Source: Sinorhizobium mexicanum
GTDB taxonomy: Bacteria; Pseudomonadota; Alphaproteobacteria; Rhizobiales; Rhizobiaceae
Assembly: GCF_013488225.1 (NCBI RefSeq)
Contig: NZ_CP041241.1
Location: forward strand, 1,736,001-1,800,000
DNA length: 64,000 nt
Direction: 5' to 3'
The notes under the pieces are model-generated. The model was given only the letters and a program-made list of their open reading frames with translations, made no database searches and was not told the DNA's origin. Within the stretch, counting starts at the first letter, position 1. Each line of letters starts with the position of its first letter. A program made the position numbers and the translations under genes. Positions 1,246 through 15,284 of the stretch are shown one piece after another.

Positions 1246-1698
1246 ATGGACGCTACAGACAGAAAAATCATTGGAATTCTTGCAGAGGATGCCCGAACGT
1301 CGTTGACCGACATCGGTGCGGCGGTCGACCTCTCGCCCTCCGCCGTCAACGAGCGCATCCGCCGGCTCGTTGCCGGTGGCACGATCCGCCGTTTTACGCT
1401 CGACGTGGATCATCGCGCCCTTGGCCTCGACGTTCTCGCCTTTGTCTGGATCGCCCTTTCGGCCGATGCCGATGAAACCGAATTCCGCGCGTTCATGGCG
1501 GCACACCCGGTTGTCGCCGAATGCCATCACGTCACTGGCGCATGGTCCTATTGCGTCAAGGTCCGCATGCCGACGCTCAGCGATATCGAGCCGTTTCTCT
1601 CCGAGCTGAAAGCACGGCGATACCTCGCCCGCAGCGAGACCGTCATCGCGCTTTCGACCGTTGCCGATAACCTCTTCACTGGACCGGAGGTCCGATAG
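1246..1698 (+). CDS. Lrp/AsnC family transcriptional regulator
   Basis: This 150-aa protein has the Lrp/AsnC layout: an N-terminal winged helix-turn-helix (residues 1-60, beginning DATDRKIIGILAEDAR and including LSPSAVNERIRRL) and a C-terminal ligand-binding RAM domain (about 65-145, with the VTGAWSYCVKV strand). The next gene, a LysE/RhtB-type exporter, starts only 2 bp after the stop. The pair is the classical arrangement of an amino-acid-sensing Lrp protein controlling an amino acid exporter, so the likely effector is an amino acid exported by its neighbour. That role is inference; which amino acid cannot be read from the sequence. The ATG is the first Met of the conserved domain. Confidence 0.9.
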   Translation: MDATDRKIIGILAEDARTSLTDIGAAVDLSPSAVNERIRRLVAGGTIRRFTLDVDHRALGLDVLAFVWIALSADADETEFRAFMAAHPVVAECHHVTGAWSYCVKVRMPTLSDIEPFLSELKARRYLARSETVIALSTVADNLFTGPEVR

Positions 1699-1700
1699 AC

Positions 1701-2324
1701 ATGTCCGTACTGCTTTTCGGAAAAGGCCTCCTGCTCGGCCTCGCCATTGCCGCCCCGGTCGGGCCGATCGGCGCGCTTTGCATCAGCCGTACGCTGACGC
1801 GCGGCTTTTGGGCCGGCGTCGCGGGCGGCCTTGGAACCGCGCTCGCCGACGCGGCCTACGCGATGCTCGCGGCGGTCGGCTTTGCGGCATTCGCTGCTGC
1901 GCTTTCCGCAATCGCGACACCGCTCGGCCTGGTGGGAGGCCTGTTCATGATATGGCTCGGCTGGCGCGGACTGGCGCCGAAACCGGTTGCTACGGCCGCC
2001 GAGATCGACGCGCGCGATCTCATTCATACGACGACCGCGACCTTCTTCCTGACGATCGCCAACCCCACGACGATCCTGTCCTTCGCCGCCATCTTCGCCG
2101 GGCTCGGGCTTTCGACGGTGGGCCAAGGGATAAAGGGCGCGATTGTCGTCTCGGGCGTCTTTCTCGGTTCGCTCGCCTGGTGGTTCTTCTTGAGCGGCGG
2201 CGTCGCGCTCGCCAAGAGACGGCTCCCGGATAGTTTCGCCGCTTGGGTGTCGCGCATTTCCGGGCTTCTGCTGATCGCATTCGGCATAACCGCGCTCGCA
2301 TCGAGCGCGACACGGTTTGTCTGA
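1701..2324 (+). CDS. LysE/RhtB family amino acid exporter
   Basis: This 207-aa inner-membrane protein has about six hydrophobic segments. Its N-terminus carries the LysE-superfamily signature (FGKGLLLGLAIAAPVGPIGALC). A TANPTTILSF-like stretch near residues 118-127 matches the conserved 'NP' motif of the family. Length is usual for RhtB/LysE members (about 200-210 aa). It exports amino acids or related metabolites; the substrate cannot be determined. It starts 2 bp downstream of the Lrp-type gene and is almost certainly co-transcribed with it. Confidence 0.88.
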   Translation: MSVLLFGKGLLLGLAIAAPVGPIGALCISRTLTRGFWAGVAGGLGTALADAAYAMLAAVGFAAFAAALSAIATPLGLVGGLFMIWLGWRGLAPKPVATAAEIDARDLIHTTTATFFLTIANPTTILSFAAIFAGLGLSTVGQGIKGAIVVSGVFLGSLAWWFFLSGGVALAKRRLPDSFAAWVSRISGLLLIAFGITALASSATRFV

Positions 2325-2472
2325 CGCCTTGTGCGCGACACAATAGAAACCCAAACACAATCACAAAATGTGTTTCAGTCCATGGATTCTGGCGCGTCCT
2401 GATTGCATCACACCATTTATTCGAGCAAACTTATATGGATGAGATCGAACCGTTCCGAGGAGAATCACTGCG

Positions 2473-2934
2473 ATGAATAAGAAGGATCCAAACCCGATTG
2501 ATACCTTCGTCGGTTCTCGCGTCAGAATGCGCAGGCTGATGGTGGGGCTGAGCCAGGAGAAGCTGGCCGATGGCCTGGGCATCACGTTCCAGCAGGTACA
2601 GAAGTACGAAAAGGGCACAAACCGCATCGGCGCGAGCCGTCTGCAGGCGATTGCGGATATTTTGGGTGTCCACCCGAGCTTCTTTTTCCAACGCGAAGAT
2701 GACAAGGCGTCAGGACGAGACAGTGCCGGCGACATGCATGAATCGAACGAGATTTCTTCCTTCGTCGCGTCGAAGGAAGGCATTGCGCTCAACAGGGCGT
2801 TCCTGAAGATTGCCGATCCGGTGTTGCGGAAGAAGATCATCTCGCTCGTTGCCGCCATGGCGCAGGCACCGGATACGGAGTCGTCGACGAGCGTCACCTC
2901 TGGAGCGCGTCGCACAGAGCCTCTGCACGGCTAG
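2473..2934 (+). CDS. XRE-family transcriptional regulator (PhrR/PraR-like)
   Basis: This 153-aa cytoplasmic DNA-binding protein has a Cro/CI helix-turn-helix at residues 12-70 (RVRMRRLMVGLSQEKLADGL, ITFQQVQKYEKG, NRI). The FVGSRVRMRR and KYEKGTNRIGASRL wording is that of the rhizobial PhrR/PraR-type regulators. The C-terminal half is low-complexity and polar and resembles no domain I recognise. An AGGAGAATC ribosome site precedes the ATG. The gene lies 39 bp upstream of the SARP-like/TPR gene on the same strand. It could be the first gene of the YcaO/TfuA run or an unrelated regulator; the sequence does not decide. Confidence 0.82.
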   Translation: MNKKDPNPIDTFVGSRVRMRRLMVGLSQEKLADGLGITFQQVQKYEKGTNRIGASRLQAIADILGVHPSFFFQREDDKASGRDSAGDMHESNEISSFVASKEGIALNRAFLKIADPVLRKKIISLVAAMAQAPDTESSTSVTSGARRTEPLHG

Positions 2935-2973
2935 ACTAGATACTAAATAGCCTTACCGTCAGCGAGGGGCCGC

Positions 2974-4842
2974 ATGACCTACAGGTTGCAGACTCTGGGA
3001 CGATTGCGCCTGCTTAACGAAGCGGGCCGCGAAGTCGCCTTCCCCGAGAAGGGTCTGCTCATACTGTGTCTTGCGATTGCCAACGGCCATCGCGAGCAAT
3101 CCCGGGCGGAAACTGCGAGGCTGCTCTGGGACGGAGTCGAGCCCAGTCAGGCCTATGTCAACCTGCGCAAGACAATTTCCCGCATCACCGCGCAGCAGAC
3201 GGAACTCGGGCGAACCTTTCTGACCTTTTCGCAGTCGTCGATCCTAGTCAATGCCGGCAGCTTGACGAGCGATCTGGATGCCGTGAACGATGAAGGCGGC
3301 GACACTTTGGCTCGCTTCTGCCGCATTGCCACTGTGCTGCGCGACGATTTCCTGAAGGATGCAAGATCGCACGGCAGGGCGCTCGATGCCTGGATCAACC
3401 GCCAGCGCGAGAGGCATATGTCGCTGCTCAGGGAAAGCCTGCTTGCCGCGGCGCCCGCCGCCGCGGGCAAACATCGCGAACTTCTCAAGTCGGCGGCAAT
3501 GCGACTGCTCGAACGCAGCCCGTCGGACGAGGAAGTCCGGGCGATCTTGAAGAGCGCGCTGGAATCGGAAGGGCGGCACCATGACGCGCAGGTCATCTTC
3601 GACAGCGTTAGCCTGTCAGTGCCTATCGCCAGCAACCAGCCCTCCGCGCCCGTCGAGGTCCTCGTCAGGGACGACCAACACCAGAGAAAGCCGCCGCGCC
3701 TCGTGCTGCTACCGCCAAACGCCGAGCGCGCAGATAGCGCCGCGGCGATCTTTGCAAGCTCGCTCATCGAGGACGTGACAATCGGCCTTTGCGCCCTTCG
3801 GTCGGTCAGTGTCATCGCGCCCTATACCGCGGCGCAGATCGGCCTTCAGGCCGACAAGGCCAACACCTACGAGCGGCACACCATCAGCTATATCCTCGAC
3901 ACGCGATTGACCGATGAGGGTGACCGCCAGAGCCTCTTTGCGCAACTGATCTTTTTTGCGAACGACGAAGTCATCTGGGCCGACCGGTTCAATCTCGTCG
4001 GCGATGGGCTGATGCGGTCGCGCAGAGGTATCGCGCACCAGATCGCCTCGGCGATCGCAAGCCAGGTCGAGCAGAACGAAGCCGCCCGGCACGCCTACGA
4101 GCGCAACGGCGAGTCCTATCGCAGCTATCTTCTCGGCCAGCGCTATCTCAAGCACCTCAACCTCCCCGAGATCCGCCGGGCGCGCAAGAGCTTCCGCGAA
4201 GCACTTGGCGGCCAGAGGGACTTCGCTCCAGCCATGAGCGGGCTCGCTCGGAGCTATTTCGTCGAATGGCTGCTGACGGCGCGCAACGATCGCGAGTTGT
4301 TGATGCTCGCCGAGAGCCATGCGCGCGAGGCCGTGGCCGCGGACGAAACGCTTGCTTCCGGGTACAGGGAGCTCGGCGTCGTCAAGCTCTACCTCCGCGA
4401 ATTCGACGAAAGCGTAGAGTTCCACGACCGGGCGGAAGAGCTCAGCCCGCACTATGCCAATGTCATCGCCAGCTACGCCGATACCCTCGTGCAGGCCTCA
4501 AGGCCCGGAGAGGGCCTGCAGAAAATCGAGGCGGCGATCGACCTCAACCCGATCGCTCCGGACGAATATTTCTGGACCGCCGCCGGTGCCAGTTACTCTC
4601 TTCGCCGCTACGAACAGGCTCTCGCCTACATCGACCGGATGCGGGATCGCACACCAGCCGACCGGCTGTCGGCCGCGAGTTGGGGCATGCTGGGCGACCG
4701 CAGAAAGGCACGCCAGTTCGTGCGCAAGACATTCGATGTCCATCCGGATTTCGATCTCGGCAGGTGGATGGCGATCGTGCCCTTCCGCGAGGAATGGCAG
4801 AAGGAACATTATCGCGAGGGTTTGAAGAAGGCGGGTTTTTGA
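2974..4842 (+). CDS. SARP-like/TolB-like/TPR transcriptional regulator
   Basis: This 622-aa protein appears to have three parts. The N-terminus (about 1-95) resembles the winged-helix domain of SARP/BTAD activators: LGRLRLLNEAGREV, EKGLLILCLAIANG, ETARLLWDG and AYVNLRKTISRI are the usual landmarks. It is followed by a helical BTAD-like region (about 100-205). The middle (about 235-370) resembles the TolB-like domain of rhizobial adenylate-cyclase/regulator proteins (RLVLLPPN, ASSLIEDVTIGL). The C-terminus (about 380-610) is made of tetratricopeptide-like helices. No signal peptide or membrane segment is seen. It lies 36 bp upstream of the 72-aa gene and shares its strand with YcaO and TfuA, so I infer it activates that cassette. 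No ligand can be proposed. Confidence 0.8.
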   Translation: MTYRLQTLGRLRLLNEAGREVAFPEKGLLILCLAIANGHREQSRAETARLLWDGVEPSQAYVNLRKTISRITAQQTELGRTFLTFSQSSILVNAGSLTSDLDAVNDEGGDTLARFCRIATVLRDDFLKDARSHGRALDAWINRQRERHMSLLRESLLAAAPAAAGKHRELLKSAAMRLLERSPSDEEVRAILKSALESEGRHHDAQVIFDSVSLSVPIASNQPSAPVEVLVRDDQHQRKPPRLVLLPPNAERADSAAAIFASSLIEDVTIGLCALRSVSVIAPYTAAQIGLQADKANTYERHTISYILDTRLTDEGDRQSLFAQLIFFANDEVIWADRFNLVGDGLMRSRRGIAHQIASAIASQVEQNEAARHAYERNGESYRSYLLGQRYLKHLNLPEIRRARKSFREALGGQRDFAPAMSGLARSYFVEWLLTARNDRELLMLAESHAREAVAADETLASGYRELGVVKLYLREFDESVEFHDRAEELSPHYANVIASYADTLVQASRPGEGLQKIEAAIDLNPIAPDEYFWTAAGASYSLRRYEQALAYIDRMRDRTPADRLSAASWGMLGDRRKARQFVRKTFDVHPDFDLGRWMAIVPFREEWQKEHYREGLKKAGF

Positions 4843-4878
4843 GGCGCAATTCCGCGCGAGAGCAAGAGGGGGTAATAG

Positions 4879-5097
4879 ATGGCTGAAGTTGTTGTTTTCG
4901 GCGTTGCCGGAGAGGATCATTTGTGGCTCGCGGATCTCAAGGCGGGGACCGTCACCAGGATCGACCCGCCCAAGCAGGGCGCGCTGGCGGACGCCGACGC
5001 ATTGCGTAAGGCCGGGTCCACGGTCGTCAAAACCGTCAATCTGGCAGCAGCGGCAAGTTCTGCCGACGCCGTTTTCGGAGGTTTCATGGACGGCTAG
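4879..5097 (+). CDS. 72-aa peptide, candidate YcaO/TfuA substrate
   Basis: This small ORF has a strong ribosome site (GAGGGGG, 7 nt before the ATG) and sits 36 bp after the regulator gene and 9 bp before YcaO, so it is part of the same run. The protein starts MAEVVVFGVAGEDHLWLADL, has a charged middle with GTVTRIDPP, and ends AAAASSADAVFGGFMDG. I recognise no family. Features fitting a RiPP precursor are its size, its position and a Gly/Ser-rich tail after a hydrophilic leader-like part. Features against are the absence of a double-Gly or Nif11-type leader signature and of Cys. It could instead be a small accessory protein. The precursor role is inference only. Confidence 0.6.
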   Translation: MAEVVVFGVAGEDHLWLADLKAGTVTRIDPPKQGALADADALRKAGSTVVKTVNLAAAASSADAVFGGFMDG

Positions 5098-5106
5098 CCG
5101 CCGGCC

Positions 5107-6354
5107 ATGCGCGACGGGCAGCGGGCCAAAGGGCTGTCGCCAACGCGTCTCTTCAAAGCCATGTCCGAGTCAATCCGCTATTCCGATCGGATCTGCGCCG
5201 CCGAAACAACCTTCGGCCGGATCGAGCCGCTTTTGCCGGAGTTCGGCATCACGCGGCTCGCGCGGCTGACCGGGCTGGATTGCATCGGCATACCGGTCTG
5301 GAATGCCGTGTCCCCGAATTCGACGTCGCTGGTTATCAATCAGGGCAAGGGTATAACCGACATCGACGCAAAGGTCTCGGCCGCCATGGAGGCGCTCGAG
5401 CGCGCCGTCGCATGCGCGCCGCGCGTACCGACGAGGGTTGCGCGCCGCGGGGATCTGTTGGCCGAAGGCGATCAGGCCCTGTCTCTGCCGGGGCTGATCG
5501 CCAGCGCGCGAGCCGATCTTGGCGACGACGAGCCGATCCGGTGGGTTCTCGGGCGCAACCTTGACGGAGGTGCGCCGACATGGGTTCCGCTGGAGGCCGC
5601 CCTGCTCGACAGGACGGTCGAGAACTGCCGGTTCTGGCAATCGTCCGATGGCCTCGCCTCCGGCAACACCGAGACGGAAGCGACGCTGCATGGGCTCTTG
5701 GAACGGATCGAACGGGACGCGGAGGTGCTGTGGCGCCTCACGCCGTTGGCAACGAGGCTTCGACGCTGCGTCGCACCGCAGGCGCTCGGCGATCCGGTGC
5801 TCGATGCGATGGCCGTGAGGTTTGCCGCAGCCGAACTCGAACTGCGCCTTTTCGACATCACCAGCGATGTCGGCATACCGAGCTTCACCGCGGTCGTGGC
5901 CGGGAAAGACATCCTCACGGCGAAGGCGCCGCTTTTCCACCATGTCACGGTCGGACACGGGGCACATCCGAATGCGGTCAGAGCGGCCATCCGCGCGGTG
6001 ACCGAAGCGGCCCAATCGAGGCTCACCTATATCAGCGGCGCGCGCGACGATGTCTATCCGGAGACCTTCGTTCGTCCTTTGCCGCAGCTGACGCAAAAAC
6101 TGTTCGAGGCTGTGCCGCAAGCGCCGACGCGCGTCGATGCCACCCCGACGGGGGGACCAGACGCGCTGTTGTCTTTCGTCCTGCAGCGGCTGCGGGAGGC
6201 TGGCATCGGGACCGTCATTTCCGTGCCCTTGCTCGGCGATGGCCTGCCCTTTGCGGTTGTGAAAGTGTTCGCGCCGGACCTGGAAAACCCGGACGGCGAG
6301 CGCAAGCGCCGCTTCGGCACACGGGCGCTTTCCTGGGCATTGGAGGTGGCATGA
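5107..6354 (+). CDS. YcaO-domain ATP-dependent peptide cyclodehydratase/thioamidase
   Basis: YcaO proteins use ATP to activate a peptide backbone amide, giving azolines or, with TfuA, thioamides. The 415-aa protein shows the family core: LLPEFGITRLARLTGLD (about 43-58), SAAMEALER (91-99) with the ATP/Mg-binding Ser/Glu pattern, and ETEATLHGLLERIERDA (189-205) carrying the canonical Glu and Arg-Asp residues. A later EAAQSR helix completes the site. The C-terminus ends SWALEVA and lacks the PxPxP tail of azoline-forming YcaOs, which agrees with a TfuA-partnered enzyme. Its stop overlaps the TfuA start (ATGA). No strong ribosome site precedes the chosen ATG; the Met at 5161 is an alternative. 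Confidence 0.9.
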   Translation: MRDGQRAKGLSPTRLFKAMSESIRYSDRICAAETTFGRIEPLLPEFGITRLARLTGLDCIGIPVWNAVSPNSTSLVINQGKGITDIDAKVSAAMEALERAVACAPRVPTRVARRGDLLAEGDQALSLPGLIASARADLGDDEPIRWVLGRNLDGGAPTWVPLEAALLDRTVENCRFWQSSDGLASGNTETEATLHGLLERIERDAEVLWRLTPLATRLRRCVAPQALGDPVLDAMAVRFAAAELELRLFDITSDVGIPSFTAVVAGKDILTAKAPLFHHVTVGHGAHPNAVRAAIRAVTEAAQSRLTYISGARDDVYPETFVRPLPQLTQKLFEAVPQAPTRVDATPTGGPDALLSFVLQRLREAGIGTVISVPLLGDGLPFAVVKVFAPDLENPDGERKRRFGTRALSWALEVA

Positions 6355-7070
6355 AGATCGTCTTCGTCGGTCCGACCGTCCCCGATGCGCGCGAACTCGC
6401 CGGTGCGGCTTTCGCGGTCGATCCACCGGCGATGCAGGGCGATATCCTGCGCGCCGCACGCGCCGGCGCGACGGTCATCGGTCTTGTCGACGGAAATTTC
6501 GAACATGTGGCGCCGGTCTGGCACAAGGAGATCCTGTTCGCTCTTTCGCAAGGCGTACGGGTCTTTGGCGCGGCGAGCATGGGTGCCTTGCGCGCCGCTG
6601 AATGTGCGCCCTTCGGAATGGTAGGGATCGGAGAAATATATCGCCAGTATGCCGCAGGCGAGCTCACGGACGACTCGGATGTGGCCCTGCTTCACGCTCC
6701 CGCCGAGCTCGGCTATGCGCCCCTGACGGTCCCGCTGGTAAATGTGCGCGCAACGCTCGCGCGCCTCAGGCAAGGCGGCTCGGTTACGGCTGCGGATGCG
6801 GCGCAGATCGAGGCGGCAGCCGGGCAGATATTCTACAAGCGGCGCACATGGGCTGCGATCATTGCCGGTGCAGAACTTCGGGCGGCTTGCGATCGCGCCG
6901 CCTTGGCCGCTAGGCTGCAGCAGGAGATGGTCGACCAGAAGCGCGCCGACGCCCTCGCGCTTTTCGACGCGGTACGGACTCAGCCGGCCGAACGGCGCGG
7001 CGAGAGACCCGGCTGGGCTTTCAAATCGACAAGTATGTGGAAGGTTTTGCTTAATCAACCTGAGACGTAG
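6351..7070 (+). CDS. tfuA: TfuA-like protein, YcaO partner
   Basis: This 239-aa protein begins MKIVFVGPTVPDARELA and contains the TfuA core VWHKEILFALSQGVRVFGAA, SMGALRAAE, GMVGIGEIYRQY and ELTDDSDVALLHAP, as in the protein from rhizobial trifolitoxin loci. TfuA proteins accompany YcaO in thioamide-forming systems, where they are thought to help deliver sulfur; this is family knowledge. The start overlaps the YcaO stop by 4 nt (ATGA), implying translational coupling. No transporter or immunity gene of the trifolitoxin cluster is present nearby, so this is not a complete trifolitoxin locus. Confidence 0.92.
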   Translation: MKIVFVGPTVPDARELAGAAFAVDPPAMQGDILRAARAGATVIGLVDGNFEHVAPVWHKEILFALSQGVRVFGAASMGALRAAECAPFGMVGIGEIYRQYAAGELTDDSDVALLHAPAELGYAPLTVPLVNVRATLARLRQGGSVTAADAAQIEAAAGQIFYKRRTWAAIIAGAELRAACDRAALAARLQQEMVDQKRADALALFDAVRTQPAERRGERPGWAFKSTSMWKVLLNQPET

Positions 7071-7192
7071 GATCGGTTGCATTTCCCATTCAGCGTGTGT
7101 CACGCTCGTGTCACGCCCACGGCGCCGAAGTCACGCTATATTCGCTGGCGAAAGCGGGTCGCAGTGACCCCCGAGTGGCACTGGGGAAAATC

Positions 7193-7429
7193 ATGCAGCA
7201 ATCCATCAAGCTACCTATCGACGTGGAAGACAAGGAGAAGGAACTTCTGGCCCTTGCCCGCCTCGTCAGCTACGCGCGAGACTCCGCCAAGACATTGAAC
7301 GTCGAAGGCGTGCAATATTGCCTGGAATTGGCCTTGGCCTCCCTGCTCCAGGAAGTCGAATACATCAGCGACAAGAACGTTCTTCCGACGGTCGATCTGA
7401 TGGCTCTGGGCAGCTTGGGCCGCTGCTAA
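7193..7429 (+). CDS. 78-aa conserved-looking small protein of unknown function
   Basis: The ATG at 7193 has a good ribosome site (TGGGGAAAATC). The 78-aa product is mostly amphipathic helix: an acidic start (KLPIDVEDKEKELLALARLV), a middle with EGVQYCLELALASLLQEVEY and a tail ending DLMALGSLGRC. I recognise no family. It follows TfuA by 122 bp on the same strand, so it could be the last gene of that run or have its own promoter. The final Cys and Gly-containing tail make it a second, weaker candidate for a modified peptide. The frame is open upstream but that part has no ribosome site and looks non-coding. Confidence 0.55.
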   Translation: MQQSIKLPIDVEDKEKELLALARLVSYARDSAKTLNVEGVQYCLELALASLLQEVEYISDKNVLPTVDLMALGSLGRC

Positions 7430-7499
7430 CCAACGCATGCTTGCCCGAGAGCAGGCAGCACTCAACGGCGGCATAGGGCGAAGCTACGCAGGTTCAGAG

Positions 7500-7595
7500 A
7501 GTTAGATCGTTCACTGTTTCAATGAAACAATGAAATGATCTTTAGAGGGGCGAGGAGCTGGAGCGGCTTCCACTGGGATCCGCTCCAGCTCCTCG
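7500..7595. repeat. Two adjacent palindromic elements
   Basis: The first element (about 7500-7545, GTTAGATCGTTCACTG then AATGAAATGATC) is a decayed copy of the perfect hairpin at 53943-53989. Immediately after it, CGAGGAGCTGGAGCGG (7551-7566) pairs with its exact complement at 7580-7595, a 16-bp stem with a 13-nt loop. The pair lies beyond the stop of the leftward HtrA gene and could end its transcript, although no T-run follows on that strand. Confidence 0.6.
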
Positions 7596-7622
7596 GACTC
7601 GTTGGCAATCGGCGCGGGCCGC

Positions 7623-8579
7623 TCACGATCGAGCGACCGGGACCAATGTCCTCTTTTCGAGCTTGCCCGCCACTGAAAAGATCAGGAATTCGGTCGCCTG
7701 ACCGATCCTCTCGCCGTCCATCAGCCTGACGACGTCGTCCACGCCGCCGACGGGCTTGCCGTCGATCGACAGGATATAATCGCCTTCCCGAAGACCGCCG
7801 CGCTCGGCCGGGCCCCCGGGTTCCAGCCTTCTCAACCGGACCGATGTGGTGCGGTCGGTTCCCGCCGCCAGGGCGATCCTGCGCGGCAGTTCGATGGTAT
7901 CGCCGGCGATGCCGATATAGGCCCGCCTGACGTGGCCGTATCTCAGGATCTCGGAAATCACGAAATTCGCCGTGTTCGAGGCGACCGCAAAGGCGATGCT
8001 CTGCGCGCCCTGGATCACGGCGGTGTTGACCCCGATCACTTCGCCGCCCGACGAGACCAGCGGCCCTCCCGAATTTCCGGGATTGAGGGCGGCATCCGTC
8101 TGGATCACGTCGTCCATCAGGCGTCCGTTCGCCGCCCGCATGGAGCGACCAAGCGCCGAGACGATTCCCGCCGTGACGGTCCACTCGAAGCCCAGCGGAT
8201 TGCCGATGGCGATGGCAATGTGGCCTCGCCGTAGCCGCTTCGAATCCGCCAGCCGCGCCCAGGCGCCGACGCCCGAGTTCGCTCGTATGAGTGCGATGTC
8301 GGTGTCGACGTCGCGACCAAGCACACGACCTTCCGTCACGAAGCCATCCGGTGTCGTGATGCGAACGGCCCTGGAATCCCCAACGACGTGATTGTTCGTC
8401 ACGACCAGCCCGTCGGAAGAAACGGCGAAGCCCGAGCCATGACCGGCCCTGCCGCCCACCCGCTCGATGCGGCTGACCGCCGGGCCGACCACGTCGACTG
8501 CGCCGGCAATTGCATGCGAATAGGCATCCGTCAGCGCGCCGTCGTCGACGGGCGCTATTTCCTTGTCGATGAAACCCAT
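7623..8579 (-). CDS. HtrA/DegP-type serine protease with PDZ domain, no signal peptide
   Basis: This 318-aa trypsin-like (S1C) protease has its catalytic triad visible: His64 in TNNHVVG, Asp94 in DTDIALI and Ser170 in NPGNSGGPL. A single PDZ domain follows (about 225-310, RLEPGGPAERGGLREGDYIL). The N-terminus (MGFIDKEIAPVDDG) is hydrophilic and has neither a Sec nor a Tat signal nor an anchor, unlike periplasmic DegP/DegQ/DegS, so it probably acts in the cytoplasm. It is transcribed towards the TfuA region and diverges from nasT. Substrates are unknown. A missed upstream signal-bearing start is unlikely because no such in-frame extension was found. Confidence 0.9.
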   Translation of the reverse strand: MGFIDKEIAPVDDGALTDAYSHAIAGAVDVVGPAVSRIERVGGRAGHGSGFAVSSDGLVVTNNHVVGDSRAVRITTPDGFVTEGRVLGRDVDTDIALIRANSGVGAWARLADSKRLRRGHIAIAIGNPLGFEWTVTAGIVSALGRSMRAANGRLMDDVIQTDAALNPGNSGGPLVSSGGEVIGVNTAVIQGAQSIAFAVASNTANFVISEILRYGHVRRAYIGIAGDTIELPRRIALAAGTDRTTSVRLRRLEPGGPAERGGLREGDYILSIDGKPVGGVDDVVRLMDGERIGQATEFLIFSVAGKLEKRTLVPVARS

Positions 8580-8804
8580 GATCTGATCCTCAAACGGCGG
8601 CGACTATCGCCGCCGAACCAACGGACCGAAACAATTTGGTACTGTTGTTCAAAATAGATGGAGGGGCCTGCAGACCGGTTCAAGCCTCGACTGATTCAGA
8701 GCCACTCCGCGCTCCAGTCGCCTCAAATTAATGCAATCAGCTAGTCCGCAAATTTTTTAGGCAAATATATTGCGAAATTTGCTGCACTGCATCATGATCG
8801 ACGC

Positions 8805-9398
8805 ATGACCCGCCGCGACCTGACCATTCTTGTGATTGACGAGAACGCCATCCGCGCCTCGATCATCGAGGAAGGCTTGCGCGATGCCGGCCACAACCGC
8901 GTGAGCATCGTGCACGATGTCCATGGTGTCGGACGGGTGATCGAACGGTTGCAACCGGATGTGATCGTCATTGATCTCGAAAATCCCAACCGCGATTTGC
9001 TGGAGAGCATGTTCCAGCTCTCTCGCTCGGTTAAGCGGCCGATCGCCATGTTCGTTGATCGGTCCGACAGCAGCATGATCGAGGCGGCGATCGATGCTGG
9101 CGTCTCGGCCTATGTCGTCGACGGACTGCGGCAGGAGCGCGTGAAACCGATCCTCGACATGGCGATCAGCCGTTTCAACGCCTTTTCGCGCATGGAGCGC
9201 GAACTGGCGGAGGCACGCAGCGAGCTTGCGGACCGCAAGGTGATCGACCGTGCCAAGGGCATCCTGATGAAGTCGCGCGGCATCGGCGAGGAAGAGGCCT
9301 ACAAGCTACTGCGCACGACCGCGATGAACCAGAACCGCAAGTTAGCCGAAATCGCACAAAGCCTGGTGCTGGCGGCGGGATTGCTGGAGGACCTGTAA
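8805..9398 (+). CDS. nasT: NasT nitrate/nitrite-responsive ANTAR antiterminator
   Basis: This 197-aa regulator has an N-terminal response-regulator-like receiver domain (about 1-120; Asp57 in VIVIDLENP sits at the phosphoacceptor position). A coiled linker and a C-terminal ANTAR RNA-binding domain follow (about 135-195, with DRAKGILMKSRGIGEEEAY and LRTTAMNQNRKLAEIAQ). In the known NasS-NasT systems NasS holds NasT inactive without nitrate; released NasT binds a two-hairpin leader and prevents termination. Such a leader is present ahead of nrtA (10781-10910). The stop is directly followed by the nasS start. Between this gene and the divergent protease, 8580-8804 contains an AT-rich stretch (8745-8775), probably its promoter. 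Confidence 0.93.
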   Translation: MTRRDLTILVIDENAIRASIIEEGLRDAGHNRVSIVHDVHGVGRVIERLQPDVIVIDLENPNRDLLESMFQLSRSVKRPIAMFVDRSDSSMIEAAIDAGVSAYVVDGLRQERVKPILDMAISRFNAFSRMERELAEARSELADRKVIDRAKGILMKSRGIGEEEAYKLLRTTAMNQNRKLAEIAQSLVLAAGLLEDL

Positions 9399-10619
9399 AT
9401 GGCTGCCACCGCCGACATCACTCTTGGCTTCCTGCCGCTCTTCGACAGCGCCGTGCTGGTCGCCGCCAGCGAAAAAGGCTTCATCACCGACGAGGGCCTG
9501 TCGGTGCAACTCGTCCGGGAAACCTCCTGGGCCAATATCCGCGATCGGATCGCCGTCGGCCATTTCCAGGCCGCCCACATGCTGGCTCCGATGCCGATCG
9601 CATCCAATCTCGGCCTCACGCCGCTGTCGCTGGACCTCGTGGCGCCCTTTGCGCTCGGACTTGGCGGCAACGCGGTGACGGTCTCGCGCGACCTTTGGGA
9701 ACGCATGGTCGCCGAAGATGCCGGCCCCGGCACCGACCCGAGCGCCAATGGCGCAGCGCTGAGGCGGGTCGTCGCACGCCGCCGCGACGCGGGCGCGCCG
9801 CCACTGCGTTTTGCCGTCGTCCACCCCTTCTCCGGCCACAACTACGAACTGCGCTATTGGCTCGCGGGCTGCGGCATCGATCCGGAAAGCCACGTGGAGA
9901 TTGTCGTGGTTCCCCCGCCGCTGATGGTCGATGCGCTTTCGGCTGGCGCCATCGACGGTTTCTGCGTCGGCGAACCGTGGAACAGCGTCGCGGTCGCAAG
10001 GCATGCCGGGCATATTGCTACTGCCAAGGCGTCGATCTGGCGGTTGAGCCCGGAAAAGGTGCTCGGCGTTTCGGCCCGGTTCGCCGCCGAAAACCGCCCC
10101 GCGCTGGACGCTCTGCTGCGTGCGCTCTACCGAAGTTCGATGTGGTGCGGCGAAAGCGCAAATCACGAAGAACTCGCGGCGCTGATGAGCAGCCCTGCCT
10201 ATCTCGACCTGCCACGCAAGATGCTGATGCCGATTCTTACCGGCCGGCTGATGCTCGGCGATGGCGCGACAGGCGACATTCCAGAGTTCTTTGTCCCGCA
10301 CGCCAAGGGTGCGACCTTTCCCTGGCAGAGCCACGCCCTCTGGTTCTACAGCCAGATGGTGCGGTGGGGACACACGCCGCATTCGGCCGCGCTTGCTGAG
10401 CGTGCACGCGACACCTACCGGCCCGACATCTACCGACAGGCGCTGAAGCCGATCGCCGCGCCGATGCCCGGCGCCAATATGAAGGTCGAAGGCGCCTTGA
10501 CCGTGGCGGCGCCGGTTGGCGCTTCGGAAAGAGGGCTCGTTCTGGGCCCCGACGGCTTTTTCGACGGCCGGATCTTCGACCCGGACCGGCTCGACGCCTA
10601 CCTGGCGAGCCAGCGCTGA
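9399..10619 (+). CDS. nasS: NasS nitrate sensor (NrtA-like periplasmic-binding fold, cytoplasmic)
   Basis: This 406-aa protein has the CmpA/NrtA nitrate/bicarbonate-binding fold: [47 protein letters not shown] and GFCVGEPWN are shared almost word for word with the transporter protein NrtA downstream. It lacks a signal peptide (starts MAATADITLGF), so it is cytoplasmic, as expected for NasS, which binds nitrate/nitrite and controls NasT. Its ATG directly abuts the nasT stop, so the two are translated as a unit. It ends 135 bp upstream of the sigma-54-type promoter of the nrt operon. Confidence 0.92.
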   Translation: MAATADITLGFLPLFDSAVLVAASEKGFITDEGLSVQLVRETSWANIRDRIAVGHFQAAHMLAPMPIASNLGLTPLSLDLVAPFALGLGGNAVTVSRDLWERMVAEDAGPGTDPSANGAALRRVVARRRDAGAPPLRFAVVHPFSGHNYELRYWLAGCGIDPESHVEIVVVPPPLMVDALSAGAIDGFCVGEPWNSVAVARHAGHIATAKASIWRLSPEKVLGVSARFAAENRPALDALLRALYRSSMWCGESANHEELAALMSSPAYLDLPRKMLMPILTGRLMLGDGATGDIPEFFVPHAKGATFPWQSHALWFYSQMVRWGHTPHSAALAERARDTYRPDIYRQALKPIAAPMPGANMKVEGALTVAAPVGASERGLVLGPDGFFDGRIFDPDRLDAYLASQR

Positions 10620-10753
10620 GTGCACCCGAGCGTTGCTCGATTATTGTGCACTGCGCAAAATTTATTCAAGCAACAGCTTAGTCGCCTCTCACCAGCGCAC
10701 TGCCCTTTGGGTTCATCACTGAAAAATCATGAGAATCCGCGCATCCTCCGAAC

Positions 10754-10769
10754 TGGCACGGTTCCTGCT
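10754..10769 (+). promoter_or_regulatory. Sigma-54 (RpoN) type -24/-12 promoter of the nrt-nir-nas operon
   Basis: The sequence TGGCACG-GTTC-CTGCT matches the RpoN consensus TGGCACG-N4-TTGCW with one mismatch and the required 10-nt spacing between GG and GC. It would start transcription near 10780, just before the two leader hairpins, which is what an Ntr-controlled nitrate operon needs. A partly symmetric TTGTGCA-C-TGCGCAA at 10644-10658, about 110 bp upstream, is a weak candidate for an NtrC site (spacing differs from the consensus). Confidence 0.75.
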
Positions 10770-10780
10770 TTGAGGAGAAC

Positions 10781-10910
10781 GTAGGGCCATTGATGGTCTG
10801 CTGGAAATAGTCGGCGTCCAATGAAGGGCGCAGAAGGCAAGGCTGCCAAACCGGGAACGCGCTCTGAACGAGGCAGAGCGTCGGACTGCGGTTTGGCAGC
10901 CTTTTTATTT
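10781..10910 (+). promoter_or_regulatory. NasT-responsive leader: two ANTAR-type hexaloop hairpins plus terminator
   Basis: Two short hairpins with six-base loops lie in the leader: GGCC-ATTGAT-GGTC (10785-10798) and GCGTCC-AATGAA-GGGCGC (10814-10831). Both loops have A at position 1 and G at position 4, the known signature of ANTAR-protein target RNA. Eight bases later the intrinsic terminator hairpin begins (10839). Its order (hairpin, hairpin, terminator) is that of characterised NasR/NasT/EutV leaders. I infer that NasT binding blocks termination when nitrate or nitrite is present. Confidence 0.8.
10839..10908 (+). terminator. Intrinsic terminator in the nrtA leader (attenuator)
   Basis: A perfect 15-bp stem is formed by AAGGCTGCCAAACCG (10839-10853) and its complement at 10889-10903, followed by TTTTTATTT. 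The loop carries a second small hairpin (CGCTCTG/CAGAGCG around AACGAGG). It lies upstream of nrtA and downstream of the RpoN-type promoter, so it would stop transcription before the operon unless antiterminated. Confidence 0.9.
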
Positions 10911-10967
10911 GCCCCGAACGTCGCAACCGCAGGCGAACCTCCCATCGCCGGCACACAGGAGAAAATC

Positions 10968-12365
10968 ATGCACACGCCTTCTACCGGAAAATTCGCGAAG
11001 TGTTCGCTCGCCGCCTTGGCTGCTGCACTCTATTTCGGCGTCGGCTCTTTCGCGTCCGCCGAAATGCTGGTGCCCGAGAAGGACGAACTCAAGCTCGGCT
11101 TCATAAAACTTACCGACATGGCGCCTCTGGCGATCGCCTACGAGAAAGGCTTCTTCGAGGAGGAAGGGCTGTTCGTCACGCTCGAACCGCAGGCCAACTG
11201 GAAGGTACTGCTCGATCGCGTGATAACCGGCGAACTGGATGGAGCGCACATGCTCGCCGGTCAGCCACTCGCCGCCACGATCGGCTTCGGCACCAAGGCG
11301 CATATCGTGACGCCCTTCTCCATGGACCTGAACGGCAACGGCATCACCGTCTCGAACGAGGTCTGGGCGATGATGAAGGAGAATATTCCGCTCGGCGACA
11401 ACGGCAAACCGGTCCACCCCATCAAGGCCGACGCCCTGAAGCCTGTCGTGGACGCGTTCAAGGCCGAGGGCAAGCCGTTCAATCTCGGCATGGTGTTTCC
11501 GGTTTCCACCCACAACTACGAGCTTCGCTATTGGCTCGCTGCCGGCGGCATCCATCCGGGGTTCTATTCGCCGGAAAACGTCACCGGACAGATCAGAGCG
11601 GACGCGCTCCTGTCCGTGACGCCGCCGCCGCAGATGCCCTCCACGCTCGAAGCCGGCACGATCGTCGGCTACAGCGTCGGCGAGCCCTGGAACCAGGCTG
11701 CGGTCTTCAAGGGTATCGGCGTTCCGGTCGTGACCGACTACGAAATCTGGAAGAATAATCCGGAAAAAGTCTTCGGTCTGACCAAGGAATTCACCGAGAA
11801 GTACCCGAACACAACGGTTGCGCTGACAAAGGCGCTCATCCGCGCTGCCAAATGGCTGGATGAGAACAACAACGCCAACAGGGCCGAGGCCGTCGAAATC
11901 CTGTCGCGCAGCGAATATGTCGGCGCCGACGCGGCCGTCATCGCAAACTCGATGACCGGCACCTTCGAATACGAGCGGGGCGACAAGCGCGACGTTCCCG
12001 ACTTCAACGTCTTCTTCCGCCACAACGCCACCTATCCGTTTTACTCCGATGCCATCTGGTACCTGACGCAGATGCGCCGCTGGGGTCAGATCGCCGAGCA
12101 CAAGGACGATGCCTGGTACGCGGAAACAGCAAAATCCGTCTATCTGCCTGACATCTACATGAAAGCGGCGGGGATGCTGGTCGAAGAGGGAAAGGCCGAA
12201 ACGGGGGACTTCCCCTTCGGTACCGACGGTTACAGGGCGCCGACCTCCGACTTCATCGACGGCGTCACTTTCGATGCCAAGGCGCCGAACGCCTACATCG
12301 ACGCGCTCAAGATCGGGCTCAAGAACGGACAGACGATTTCCGGATCGGACGTCGTCGGCGGCTGA
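10968..12365 (+). CDS. nrtA: Nitrate ABC transporter substrate-binding protein
   Basis: This 465-aa periplasmic protein has a Sec-type signal ([19 protein letters not shown], cut near FASA-EM). The mature part has the NrtA/CmpA fold: [78 protein letters not shown]. It delivers nitrate (possibly nitrite) to the permease NrtB. The start at 10968 follows an ACAGGAGAAAATC ribosome site; the open frame upstream of it lies over the terminator leader and is not coding. A hairpin (12373-12402) separates it from nrtB, which would help keep this gene more highly expressed. Confidence 0.93.
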
Positions 12366-12372
12366 ACGTCGG

Positions 12373-12402
12373 GCCGGCGGTGCGGAACCCGAAGCCGCCG
12401 GC
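12373..12402 (+). other. Intercistronic hairpin between nrtA and nrtB
   Basis: GCCGGCGG (12373-12380) pairs exactly with CCGCCGGC (12395-12402) across a 14-nt loop. There is no T-run, so it is more likely an RNA-stabilising or processing hairpin behind the abundant binding-protein gene than a full terminator. Confidence 0.5.
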
Positions 12403-12437
12403 TCCTCGACCACAATTCCAACAGATGAGACAAATCC

Positions 12438-13511
12438 ATGACTCAAGCGATCACCATGGCTGACCTGAAACGCGCGCGACGAGAGCGTCTGTTTCAGCGG
12501 ATCAATAAAGCCGCCGGCTGGCTCAATGTGCTTGGCCTCGGCTGGGTGACCCCGATCCTGCGCATGGCGGCTGGCGACAATGTCGCCGAACAGATGTCCG
12601 AGATTCGCAGGGTTTTGCTGGTGCCGCTCGCCGGCATCCTGTGCTTCCTCGCCCTCTGGGGCATTCTTGCCCCGAAGGTTCAAACCTCGCTTGGCGCCAT
12701 TCCCGGCCCGGCCGCCGTCTTCGGCCAGGCGAACGTGCTTCTGCAGGATCATTTCGCGGAACGGAGCAAGGCAACGGCTTTCTATGCCCGGCAGGACGAA
12801 CGCAACGCCAAGCTCGTTGCCGACGGCAAGGCCGATCAGGTGAAGCATCGCGTGTTCACCGGCAAGCCGACCTATATCGACCAGATCACGACATCGCTGA
12901 TGACGGTTGGACTCGGCTTCGTGATTGCGACGCTGGTCGCCGTGCCGCTCGGGATAGCCTCGGGTCTCTCCAAGACGATCAATGGCGCCATCAACCCGCT
13001 GATCCAGATCTTCAAGCCGGTCTCGCCGCTGGCCTGGCTGCCCATCGTCACCATGGTCGTCTCGGCACTTTACGCCGATCCGTCGAGCCTGCTGCCGAAG
13101 TCGCTGGTGATCTCGGCCGTTACCGTCACCCTCTGTTCGCTGTGGCCGATGCTGATCAATACGGCCCTCGGCGTCGCCTCGATCGACAAGGATCTGGTGA
13201 ATGTCGGCAAGGTCCTGCAGCTTTCGACAGCGACGACGATCCGCAAGCTGGTTCTGCCTTCCGCCCTTCCGTTGATCTTCACCGGGCTCAGGCTTTCGCT
13301 CGGCGTGGGCTGGATGGTGCTGATCGCGGCCGAGATGCTCGCGCAGAATCCCGGCCTCGGAAAGTTCGTCTGGGACGAGTTCCAGAACGGTTCCTCCGAC
13401 TCGCTCGCCCGCATCATGGTCGCGGTGCTCACGATCGGCATCATCGGCTTCGTTCTGGACCGGGTCATGTACGCCCTCCAGTCCGCCTTCACCTTCTCGT
13501 CGAACCGGTAG
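12438..13511 (+). CDS. nrtB: Nitrate ABC transporter permease
   Basis: This 357-aa inner-membrane protein is of the NrtB/SsuC/TauC class. After a charged N-terminal region (1-55) come a first hydrophobic segment (about 60-85), a cytoplasmic stretch, then five or so membrane segments. The permease EAA-type loop is VNVGKVLQLSTATTIRKLVLP with ALPLIFTGLRLSLGVGWMVLI. The protein is longer than the usual 270-300 aa because of the N-terminal extension, which is common in proteobacterial NrtB. It lies between nrtA and the ATPase gene, 9 bp from the latter. Confidence 0.92.
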   Translation: MTQAITMADLKRARRERLFQRINKAAGWLNVLGLGWVTPILRMAAGDNVAEQMSEIRRVLLVPLAGILCFLALWGILAPKVQTSLGAIPGPAAVFGQANVLLQDHFAERSKATAFYARQDERNAKLVADGKADQVKHRVFTGKPTYIDQITTSLMTVGLGFVIATLVAVPLGIASGLSKTINGAINPLIQIFKPVSPLAWLPIVTMVVSALYADPSSLLPKSLVISAVTVTLCSLWPMLINTALGVASIDKDLVNVGKVLQLSTATTIRKLVLPSALPLIFTGLRLSLGVGWMVLIAAEMLAQNPGLGKFVWDEFQNGSSDSLARIMVAVLTIGIIGFVLDRVMYALQSAFTFSSNR

Positions 13512-13520
13512 GAGGCGCGC

Positions 13521-15284
13521 GTGGCAATTCTTCAACTGAGCGATGTCTCGAAATCCTTCGGCGAGGGGAAGTCGCGCAACGACGTCCTGTCGGCCGTAAA
13601 CCTCAAGGTCGAGGAAGGCGAGTTCATTGCCATCGTCGGTTTTTCCGGCTCGGGAAAATCGACGCTGATTTCCCTCCTCGCCGGCCTGACGATGCCGGAT
13701 CGCGGCGCGGTGCTCTTTCGCGACAAGGAAGTGTCAGGTCCAGGACCGGAGCGCGGCGTCGTCTTCCAATCCTATTCGCTGATGCCCTGGCTCTCGGTCC
13801 GCGCCAATGTCGCGCTTGCCGTCGATGCAGTGCATTCCGGCAAGACCAAAGCCGAAAGGGCGAGCATCGTTCAGTACTATATCGAGATGGTCGGTCTCGC
13901 CCACGCGACGGAGCGCCGGCCTGCGGAGCTCTCGGGTGGCATGCGCCAGCGCGTCGCCGTGGCGAGGGCGCTGGCAATGCAGCCCGACGTGCTGCTGCTC
14001 GACGAGCCGCTCTCGGCACTCGACGCGCTCACCCGCTCGAAGCTGCAGGACGAGTTCGCCGAGATCTCGGCGAAGGAAAAGAAGACCATCATCCTCATCA
14101 CCAACGACGTCGACGAGGCGATCCTGCTTGCCGACAGGATCGTTCCATTGACGCCCGGTCCGAATGCTTCGCTCGGGCCGAGCTTCGAGGTGAACCTGCC
14201 GCGCCCGCGCGACCGGGCGGAAATGAACTCGAATGCCGAGTTCATCCGTCTTCGCGGCGCCGTCACCGAATATCTGATGGATCTGGGCGCCGAACGAACG
14301 ACGGCGGAAAGCGGCGCCGTCATCTTGCCCAACGTCGTGCCGATCACGCAGAAGCTTACCGCCGCCAAGCTGCCGGATGCCTATGCCCGAAAGGCGCGTT
14401 CCGCGATCGAGAAGAGCTACGTCGAGTTTTTCGAGGTCCGAAAGGTCTATCCGACGCCGAAAGGTCCGCTGACGGTGGTCGACGGCTTCAGCCTCAAAAT
14501 GAACAGGGGCGAATTCATCTCGATCATCGGCCATTCGGGATGCGGCAAGTCGACCGTCCTGTCGATGATGGCGGGCCTCAACCCGATCTCTTCCGGCGGC
14601 ATCATCCTCGACGGACGGGAAATTTCCGGCGCCGGCCCGGATCGCGCGGTGGTTTTCCAGGCGCCCTCCCTGCTTCCCTGGCTGACCGCCCGCGAAAACG
14701 TCGCGCTCGGCGTCGACCGGGTCTATCCCGACGCGACGCCGGCGGAGCGCCGCGACGTCGTCGAATATTACCTGCAGCGCGTCGGCCTCGGCGATGCGAT
14801 GCATCGGCTTGCCGCGGATCTGTCGAACGGCATGAAGCAGCGCGTCGGCATCGCCAGGGCTTTCGCGCTGTCGCCCAAGCTGCTCCTCCTCGACGAACCT
14901 TTCGGCATGCTCGACAGCCTCACGCGCTGGGAACTGCAGGAAGTGCTGATGGACGTGTGGAAGCGGACGCAGGTGACGGCGATCTGCGTCACGCACGACG
15001 TCGACGAGGCGATCCTGCTCGCGGATCGGGTGGTGATGATGTCGAACGGCCCGAACGCGCGGATCGGCAACATCATGGAGGTGAACCTGCCGCGGCCTCG
15101 CTCGCGCAAGGAACTCCTGTCGCATCCCGACTACTACGCCTACCGCGAGGAACTCCTGGACTTCCTCGAGGCCTACGAAGGCGGCGCCAGCCCCGCTCCC
15201 GAGCATCTCGAAGCGATCCGGGCGAAGCGCGCCGCCCGAACGATGTTGTCCGCCCAGACCCTCAAGAAACAAGCCGCGGAGTAA
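13521..15284 (+). CDS. Nitrate ABC transporter ATPase with two fused nucleotide-binding domains
   Basis: This 587-aa protein contains two complete ABC ATPase domains in tandem. Domain 1 (about 1-245) has Walker [10 protein letters not shown], signature [15 protein letters not shown] and Walker [13 protein letters not shown]. Domain 2 (about 300-545) has Walker [10 protein letters not shown], signature [15 protein letters not shown] and Walker [12 protein letters not shown]. Both contain the 'ENVALGV/ANVALAV' and '[26 protein letters not shown]' stretches of the nitrate/sulfonate class. Cyanobacteria split this function into NrtC and NrtD; here one polypeptide supplies both. The second signature has Asn instead of Gly (LSNGM), as in NrtD. 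Nine bp separate it from nrtB and 4 bp from nirB. Confidence 0.92.

Follow-up and report, generated by a model that had tools for sequence, protein, structure and literature searches.

A YcaO-TfuA cassette with a conserved candidate thioamide precursor peptide in Sinorhizobium mexicanum and its relatives

Results

A compact six-gene cassette around YcaO and TfuA

We analyzed a 64,000-nt stretch of the Sinorhizobium mexicanum genome (the window; C4:1736001–1800000 of a 7.14-Mb assembly in four contigs, whose closest named relatives are Sinorhizobium/Ensifer) and found near its start a small YcaO-TfuA cassette that probably makes a thioamidated peptide (Table 1). Genes for an XRE regulator, a regulator with SARP-like, TolB-like and TPR parts (the SARP/TPR regulator), a 72-aa peptide, YcaO and TfuA follow one another, separated by 39, 36 and 9 bp up to YcaO, which TfuA overlaps by 4 bp, exactly the order and spacing given in an earlier sequence-only reading of this DNA, which was made without database searches. 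A sixth gene belongs to the unit: that reading had an open reading frame (ORF) running from 7097 to 7429, but conservation begins at 7193, which leaves a 78-aa protein whose gene is also kept in loci without TfuA and has a ratio of nonsynonymous to synonymous substitution rates (dN/dS) of 0.02–0.16. A Pfam scan matched no family to either the 72-aa or the 78-aa protein, and sigma-70 and terminator scans of 2280–7620 gave nothing above chance.

Table 1. Features of the cassette, in window coordinates.
Feature	Position	Strand	Basis
Operator/promoter element TTGCAT-N11-TTCRAGCA	2403..2427	+	45 nt ahead of XRE start; conserved upstream of XRE genes
XRE-family DNA-binding regulator, 153 aa	2473..2934	+	PF01381 (HTH_3) E 2.2e-14; probable autoregulator
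SARP-like winged helix + BTAD-like + TolB-like + TPR regulator, 622 aa	2974..4842	+	AfsR profile, TPR matches, AlphaFold2 model
Candidate precursor peptide, 72 aa	4879..5097	+	Leader-like part ~1–47, core region ~50–72
Codon of invariant Gly68, candidate thioamide site in core GGFMD	5080..5082	+	Gly in 121/121; site suggested by thioglycine-type YcaO/TfuA
YcaO, 415 aa	5107..6354	+	PF02624 E 2.6e-60; nearest solved structure MJ1094 (6pe3)
TfuA, 239 aa, predicted sulfur-releasing partner	6351..7070	+	PF07812 E 6.4e-46; nearest solved structure 6xp8
78-aa small protein, conserved cassette member	7193..7429	+	3' of peptide in 41/52 loci

The two enzymes had been read as a thioamide-forming pair, and their nearest NCBIfam models are indeed those of the McrA-glycine thioamidation YcaO and TfuA (TIGR03266/NF033432), matched below cut-off at 192.2 of 365 bits and 174.4 of 235.2 bits. 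The structure matches named in Table 1 have E values of 1.2e-30 for YcaO and 1.5e-26 for TfuA, the latter to a TfuA-domain protein, with a conserved stretch ASMGALRA. A sulfide role for TfuA is described in the literature (PMC13063428). The C-terminus of YcaO (RFGTRALSWALEVA) lacks the PxPxP tail of azoline enzymes, as had been claimed, and a Pfam scan of the nine proteins encoded in 1246–8579 found no flavin mononucleotide (FMN) dehydrogenase or cyclodehydratase partner; the cassette does not have these two features of linear azoline-containing peptide/thiazole-oxazole-modified microcin (LAP/TOMM) or trifolitoxin-type clusters. No dehydrogenase or transporter gene lies in the cassette, again as read earlier, and the nearest transporter gene, for a LysE-type exporter, is upstream at 1701–2324. 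There is also no immunity gene among the six genes; the flanks were not surveyed for one. An alternative YcaO start at 5161 is possible, since the alignment with many relatives begins only near residue 25.

Another YcaO-TfuA pair is encoded elsewhere in this genome (34% and 43% identical; C1, about 2857100–2862200, corresponding to 7132–12225 of locus L119), preceded by a gene for what by eye is a 1031-aa cyclase/ATPase-like regulator. Strain T24 (L118) and locus L047 show this gene order too, and there the next gene encodes a protein containing an HExxH-like stretch.

The 72-aa peptide belongs to a family with a repeatable C-terminal core

Searching with the 72-aa protein as a single sequence found 2 proteins, and a profile of 13 relatives matched at least 321 database proteins. 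We examined 121 sequences, comprising the best 120 of the 321 and one from the single-sequence search. The family shares an N-terminal part and has a C-terminal motif, consensus SGGFMD, that is present once in 88 sequences, twice in 19 and three times in 11, while the pattern we used detected no copy in 3; repeated cores are exemplified by SGGFMDVSGGFMDASGGFMDN and GGYMDADGGYMDTDGGYMDK, and the window peptide has one copy of GGFMD. Gly68 is invariant (121/121) and Asp71 is present in 110 of 121. Longer tandem cores behind a kept N-terminal part occur in Rhizobium giardinii (four units by eye; L016), R. rhizogenes (three; L079) and Phyllobacterium (four, of RAFSFDGRSD type; L043). A conserved N-terminal part, one to three core copies and long tandem variants are what a linked precursor with leader and core would have in a TfuA-YcaO cluster for a thioamidated ribosomally synthesized and post-translationally modified peptide (RiPP).

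The 72-aa gene has a dN/dS of 0.08–0.13 against seven of seven close relatives, which is below the values for YcaO (0.16–0.21) and TfuA (0.14–0.23; six relatives computable for each) and similar to that of the SARP/TPR gene (0.07–0.15; five close relatives computable); no value could be computed for XRE. This low dN/dS, together with retention across genera and in every one of the 33 genus genomes, shows that the 72-aa ORF is a genuine gene. The doubt whether it encodes the substrate precursor is largely resolved by the family's sequences, and by analogy with thioglycine-type YcaO/TfuA enzymes Gly68 is most likely the thioamide site.

Two tandem genes of this family are present at L168 (5978–6585) and at L043 (7231–7958). 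Extra peptide genes lie away from the cassette in three genomes that have the window type of YcaO described below (G003:C49:273653, G013:C34:415854 and G018:C1:3354201).

Regulator, peptide and enzymes are linked across the family

The sequence-only reading had suggested looking for the 72-aa gene and the regulator beside YcaO/TfuA in related strains, and we found that both are conserved there across relatives, contrary to the outcome that the reading had named as refuting it. We fetched 45 named loci by their YcaO and matched the peptide in 38 of them and the TPR gene in 39; at L016 only the peptide of these two is matched, and L043 and L045 have the TPR gene together with divergent small ORFs recognized by eye. 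Conversely, 54 peptide matches led to 52 fetched loci, the other two being the window itself and a second peptide within one locus. Of these 52, 51 have the TPR gene immediately ahead of the peptide and 42 have XRE; on the downstream side are YcaO (48 loci), TfuA (44) and the 78-aa gene (41), and 36 loci contain all six genes. These counts lean upward because the search profile was itself derived from cassette peptides. The 52nd locus (L188) also has a TPR gene, and its peptide ORF was read too long.

We found the peptide in 49 of the 297 family genomes sampled, spread over 18 of 109 genera, and in all 33 genus genomes. The arrangement is thus not the peculiarity of a single rhizobium, and YcaO-TfuA clusters have already been catalogued (PMC8120280). 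Four loci (L161, L176, L182 and L194) keep the TPR gene and the peptide without YcaO or TfuA, and therefore the regulator-peptide pair is the smallest stable unit there; all four genomes have a cassette-type YcaO elsewhere.

The cassette occurs in two parts in much of the genus

All 33 genus genomes have the peptide and one strong cassette-type YcaO, and in 30 the two genes are directly adjacent. This YcaO is of the window type (84–100% identity) in 11 genomes and of a second type (56–59%) in 22, with no genome having both. In the 22 genomes of the second type, TPR, peptide and YcaO genes usually stand without an adjacent TfuA; one exception is G021, where TfuA is about 3 kb away (L200). We fetched a TfuA locus from 19 of these split genomes, and in 15 an XRE gene lies just before TfuA and the 1.5-kb flanks hold no YcaO (G001, G011, G024 and G025 differ). 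The proteins of these orphan XRE-TfuA halves are 79–88% (XRE) and 63–68% (TfuA) identical to those of the window. The two parts are on different contigs in six assemblies of 3–4 contigs (G002, G012, G015, G016, G028 and G031) and on one contig in G010, G021, G022 and G025.

On S. meliloti pSymB, XRE and the orphan TfuA adjoin an ANTAR regulator and a CmpA/NrtA gene. Since the window ORF at 8805 is 73% identical to the pSymB ANTAR gene and the ORF at 9399 is NrtA-like by eye, the window site corresponds to the orphan-TfuA site of pSymB. The simplest history would be that TPR, peptide and YcaO genes left the ancestral site, or were replaced there, and TfuA stayed.

A common element precedes XRE at both sites

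From 56 chosen upstream regions we set aside 3 without XRE and scanned 53, allowing spacers of 6–16. The element TTGCAT-N11-TTCRAGCA is present in 42 of the 53 (0.01% in shuffled sequences), and the spacer is 11 in 42 of 42. By class, it is found in 7 of 8 window-type regions, 14 of 16 XRE-TfuA regions, 5 of 7 second-type XRE-TPR regions and 16 of 22 others. The exact element occurs once in the S. mexicanum genome, which has one N12 match elsewhere, and 41 times in 32 of the 33 genus genomes, as compared to 5 times for the reversed pattern. All 40 fetched sites (from 31 further genomes; the 41st is that of the window) are directly upstream of an XRE gene, followed by TPR in 21, by TfuA in 14 and by neither in 5. 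Exactly two copies are present in 9 of the 22 split genomes. The second-type XRE has a diverged recognition helix, unlike the XRE of the TfuA half, so that the latter regulator may serve both sites.

The regulator has a probable SARP-like N-terminus and a TPR domain

In our reading of its AlphaFold2 model (predicted local distance difference test score, pLDDT, 83.9; predicted template modelling score 0.53), the SARP/TPR protein would consist of a winged helix and helical BTAD-like region (residues 1–213), a flexible linker, an alpha/beta TolB-like domain (about 241–376) and a TPR superhelix (about 379–620). A profile of 17 relatives matches AfsR (8hvr) with an E value of 2.2e-4 over profile positions 19–230 and also matches many TPR proteins; structure comparison of the protein tests mainly the TPR part. 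The SARP-like N-terminus proposed earlier thus gains from the AfsR match and from a confident model with fitting secondary structure, but the Pfam scan matched no SARP or BTAD family, and the label seems reasonable without being settled by a curated family.

Rhizobium plasmids commonly encode homologues that carry a SARP or BTAD annotation, and in the four records common to the regulator and TfuA match lists (NZ_CP088107, CP140839, NZ_CP021028 and NZ_CP042825) the two matches are about 1.5 kb apart. The TPR profile matches 59 of 289 genomes of the class at E 1e-20. This wider TPR family is a general one, because in only 2 of 11 loci examined with flanks of up to 1.5 kb (L225 and L226) is the TPR gene followed by a small ORF and YcaO.

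To compare how the genes vary together, we used the 45 of 52 loci with all four genes present. Peptide distances track those of the TPR regulator more closely than those of YcaO (partial correlation 0.39 vs 0.11; permutation p 0.001), and with equal column numbers the values are 0.40 and 0.23, with the peptide-TPR value larger in 89 of 100. However, the DNA-binding part of the regulator alone reverses the order (0.28 vs 0.33 for YcaO), and the co-variation is therefore only suggestive. What we observe is a TPR fold and the pairing of the regulator gene with the peptide gene; the regulator may bind the peptide, and its sensing of the peptide is plausible while clearly less than probable.

Neighbouring and related loci

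Upstream of the cassette lie an Lrp-type regulator and the LysE-type exporter gene, which adjoin it in the nearest relatives only. Directly after the cassette, 8805–15284 holds the ANTAR regulator and then, by eye, NrtA-like, permease and ATPase genes (a nitrate-type uptake set). A trypsin-like protease with a PDZ domain, by eye without a signal peptide, is encoded on the minus strand at 7623–8579 and adjoins the cassette only in close relatives (L003–L009 of the 45 named loci). Plasmid p1 of Sinorhizobium sp. B11 (L077, 5986–8771) has XRE, SARP/TPR and a 78-aa-type gene, with no annotated precursor, YcaO or TfuA.

In R. anhuiense T24, plasmid pRA_T24_1 has a SARP/TPR-YcaO-TfuA set (L117, 5485–10050) with only a 47-aa ORF found between the regulator and YcaO. 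The TfuA match there lies within a 641-codon open frame, which would fit the original TfuA, described as about 642 aa long; this gene may be the tfuA of the trifolitoxin literature. We found no TfuA match on the 371-kb and 767-kb T24 plasmids, in a search that did not include the chromosome.

Discussion

We think it probable, at roughly 0.72, that the locus is a minimal self-regulated cassette making a thioamidated RiPP from the 72-aa precursor. Residues 1 to about 47 of the peptide would be the part recognized by the enzymes, and the C-terminal part would carry the core. YcaO would use ATP to activate a backbone amide in the core, and sulfide supplied by TfuA would then give a thioamide in each core copy, most likely at Gly68. 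The core may be released by general peptidases, which has been thought plausible for thiovarsolins (PMC6511847). XRE, and perhaps the SARP/TPR protein too, would act on the one private operator upstream of XRE, and the SARP/TPR protein would be a pathway-specific regulator with the peptide as its dedicated partner, possibly as a sensor.

Several observations weigh against this interpretation. Neither a peptide nor a TPR match is present at 5 of the 45 YcaO loci (L021, L026, L033, L047 and L042, where the upstream side is outside the contig), and the linkage counts carry the upward lean noted above. Three genomes have the peptide away from the strong YcaO: in G001 and G024 it adjoins a further YcaO copy (53–54%), and in G025 it lies about 2.5 kb from TfuA. 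Within the family, the operator occurs only among Sinorhizobium/Ensifer/Shinella, with 8 of 52 peptide loci at 13–14 of 14 positions; its exact form is absent from G009 in the 33-genome search, and three S. meliloti-like TPR loci that we examined have neither XRE nor the element. Core and leader are conserved to the same degree (mean entropies of 1.39 and 1.25 bits), and the core varies less than many RiPP cores do. The model of the precursor has a low score (pLDDT 62), and there is no protease or exporter among the six cassette genes, the wider flanks not having been surveyed for them.

A possible alternative, which we hold to be doubtful, is that the product is a secreted narrow-spectrum antibacterial peptide of the ecological kind of trifolitoxin or phazolicin, with the SARP/TPR protein acting only as biosynthetic activator. 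Rhizobia do make YcaO-type antirhizobial peptides (PMC9670871), the title of a cited reference reports a gene named tfuA in trifolitoxin production, and the trifolitoxin producer T24 has the related set on pRA_T24_1 (29, 38 and 43% identity); the LysE-type exporter gene upstream of XRE would also fit. However, that exporter gene is kept only in the nearest relatives, the six cassette genes (flanks not surveyed) include no transporter or immunity gene, and the T24 set is on a plasmid whereas the tfx cluster is on the chromosome. Strain-variable bacteriocins would also not be expected to resemble a peptide found in every genome of the genus with a strongly conserved core. Because of that genus-wide presence and core conservation, a physiological or signalling role seems favoured over an arms-race toxin, which speaks for such a role and does not prove it.

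It is unlikely that the peptide is a small housekeeping protein that stays uncleaved, undergoes McrA-like thioamidation in place at its C-terminal tail, and goes on to bind a partner, for example the TPR protein. The kinship of the enzymes with the protein-modifying McrA pair, the very low dN/dS and the want of a protease in the cassette would agree with this, and uL16 shows that YcaO modifies proteins in Pseudomonadota too (PMC13063428), but cores repeated in variable copy number are typical of precursors and the predicted structure has no confident fold. That the 72-aa protein is an accessory such as a recognition element, with YcaO-TfuA modifying another protein, is very improbable: a weak Foldseek list is headed by chains of RiPP proteins that contain a RiPP recognition element (5why and 5v1u; E 0.2–0.4), but profile comparison with PqqD-type proteins gave a probability of 0.1 (a weak test) and the C-terminal repeats would go unexplained.

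Within the precursor-plus-thioamidation interpretation, we tentatively suggest, and do not rate as probable, that the cassette serves intracellular or pheromone-like signalling in Gram-negative bacteria, in which a core with an invariant thioglycine would be sensed by the TPR domain of the SARP-like activator encoded just before the peptide. Peptide and receptor would then form the heritable unit, YcaO and TfuA could serve from elsewhere in the genome, and such a signal could explain the need for a distant tfuA-type locus in trifolitoxin producers. If the cassette works as proposed, rhizobia, among them every genus genome searched, have a gene for a conserved, apparently unreported thioamidated peptide, made by a very small gene set with a private operator able to tie two distant sites. 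Thioamidation in Gram-negative bacteria would gain a definite substrate and residue for testing, and why a gene outside the trifolitoxin cluster affects trifolitoxin would become directly testable.

Comparison with known systems

The class is known in silico. Genome mining has catalogued YcaO-TfuA clusters of Rhizobium, Agrobacterium and Sinorhizobium, with more than 500 TfuA clusters in Rhizobium, and relatives of the window locus are very probably among these; the main text of that study does not describe the precursor family, the SARP/TPR link, the split cassette or the operator (PMC8120280). Titles and abstract openings of the literature on TfuA, YcaO, SARP and thioamidation in rhizobia gave no description of such a locus, and in the single paper naming both TfuA and SARP the latter term has another meaning. 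As far as these sources go, the precursor family, the split cassette and the private operator are apparently undescribed.

The proven precedent is thiovarsolin, which, in the account of PMC6511847 used here, likewise combines YcaO and TfuA with a precursor whose core is variably repeated (one to five copies) and has no dedicated protease. In contrast to the var cluster, the cassette has no heme oxygenase, ATP-grasp, amidinotransferase or transporter gene, and it differs in its precursor family, its XRE and SARP/TPR regulators, its Gram-negative host and the possible location of its parts at two sites.

By profile and by the sequences of solved structures, the nearest characterized enzymes are the McrA-glycine thioamidation pair (TIGR03266 and NF033432; MJ1094 and 6xp8), from which the cassette differs in scoring below the curated cut-offs and in a substrate that is probably a small linked peptide. 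RRNPP receptors (Rap, PlcR and NprR) are the peptide receptors of Gram-positive bacteria; the likeness of the SARP/TPR regulator to them is only the common TPR fold, and the peptide here is YcaO-linked. With AfsR-type SARPs, the regulator shares a profile match over the winged-helix and BTAD-like part and C-terminal TPRs. Unlike them, it has a central TolB-like domain, of the sort present in CadC-type regulators, and is alphaproteobacterial and tied to one peptide family.

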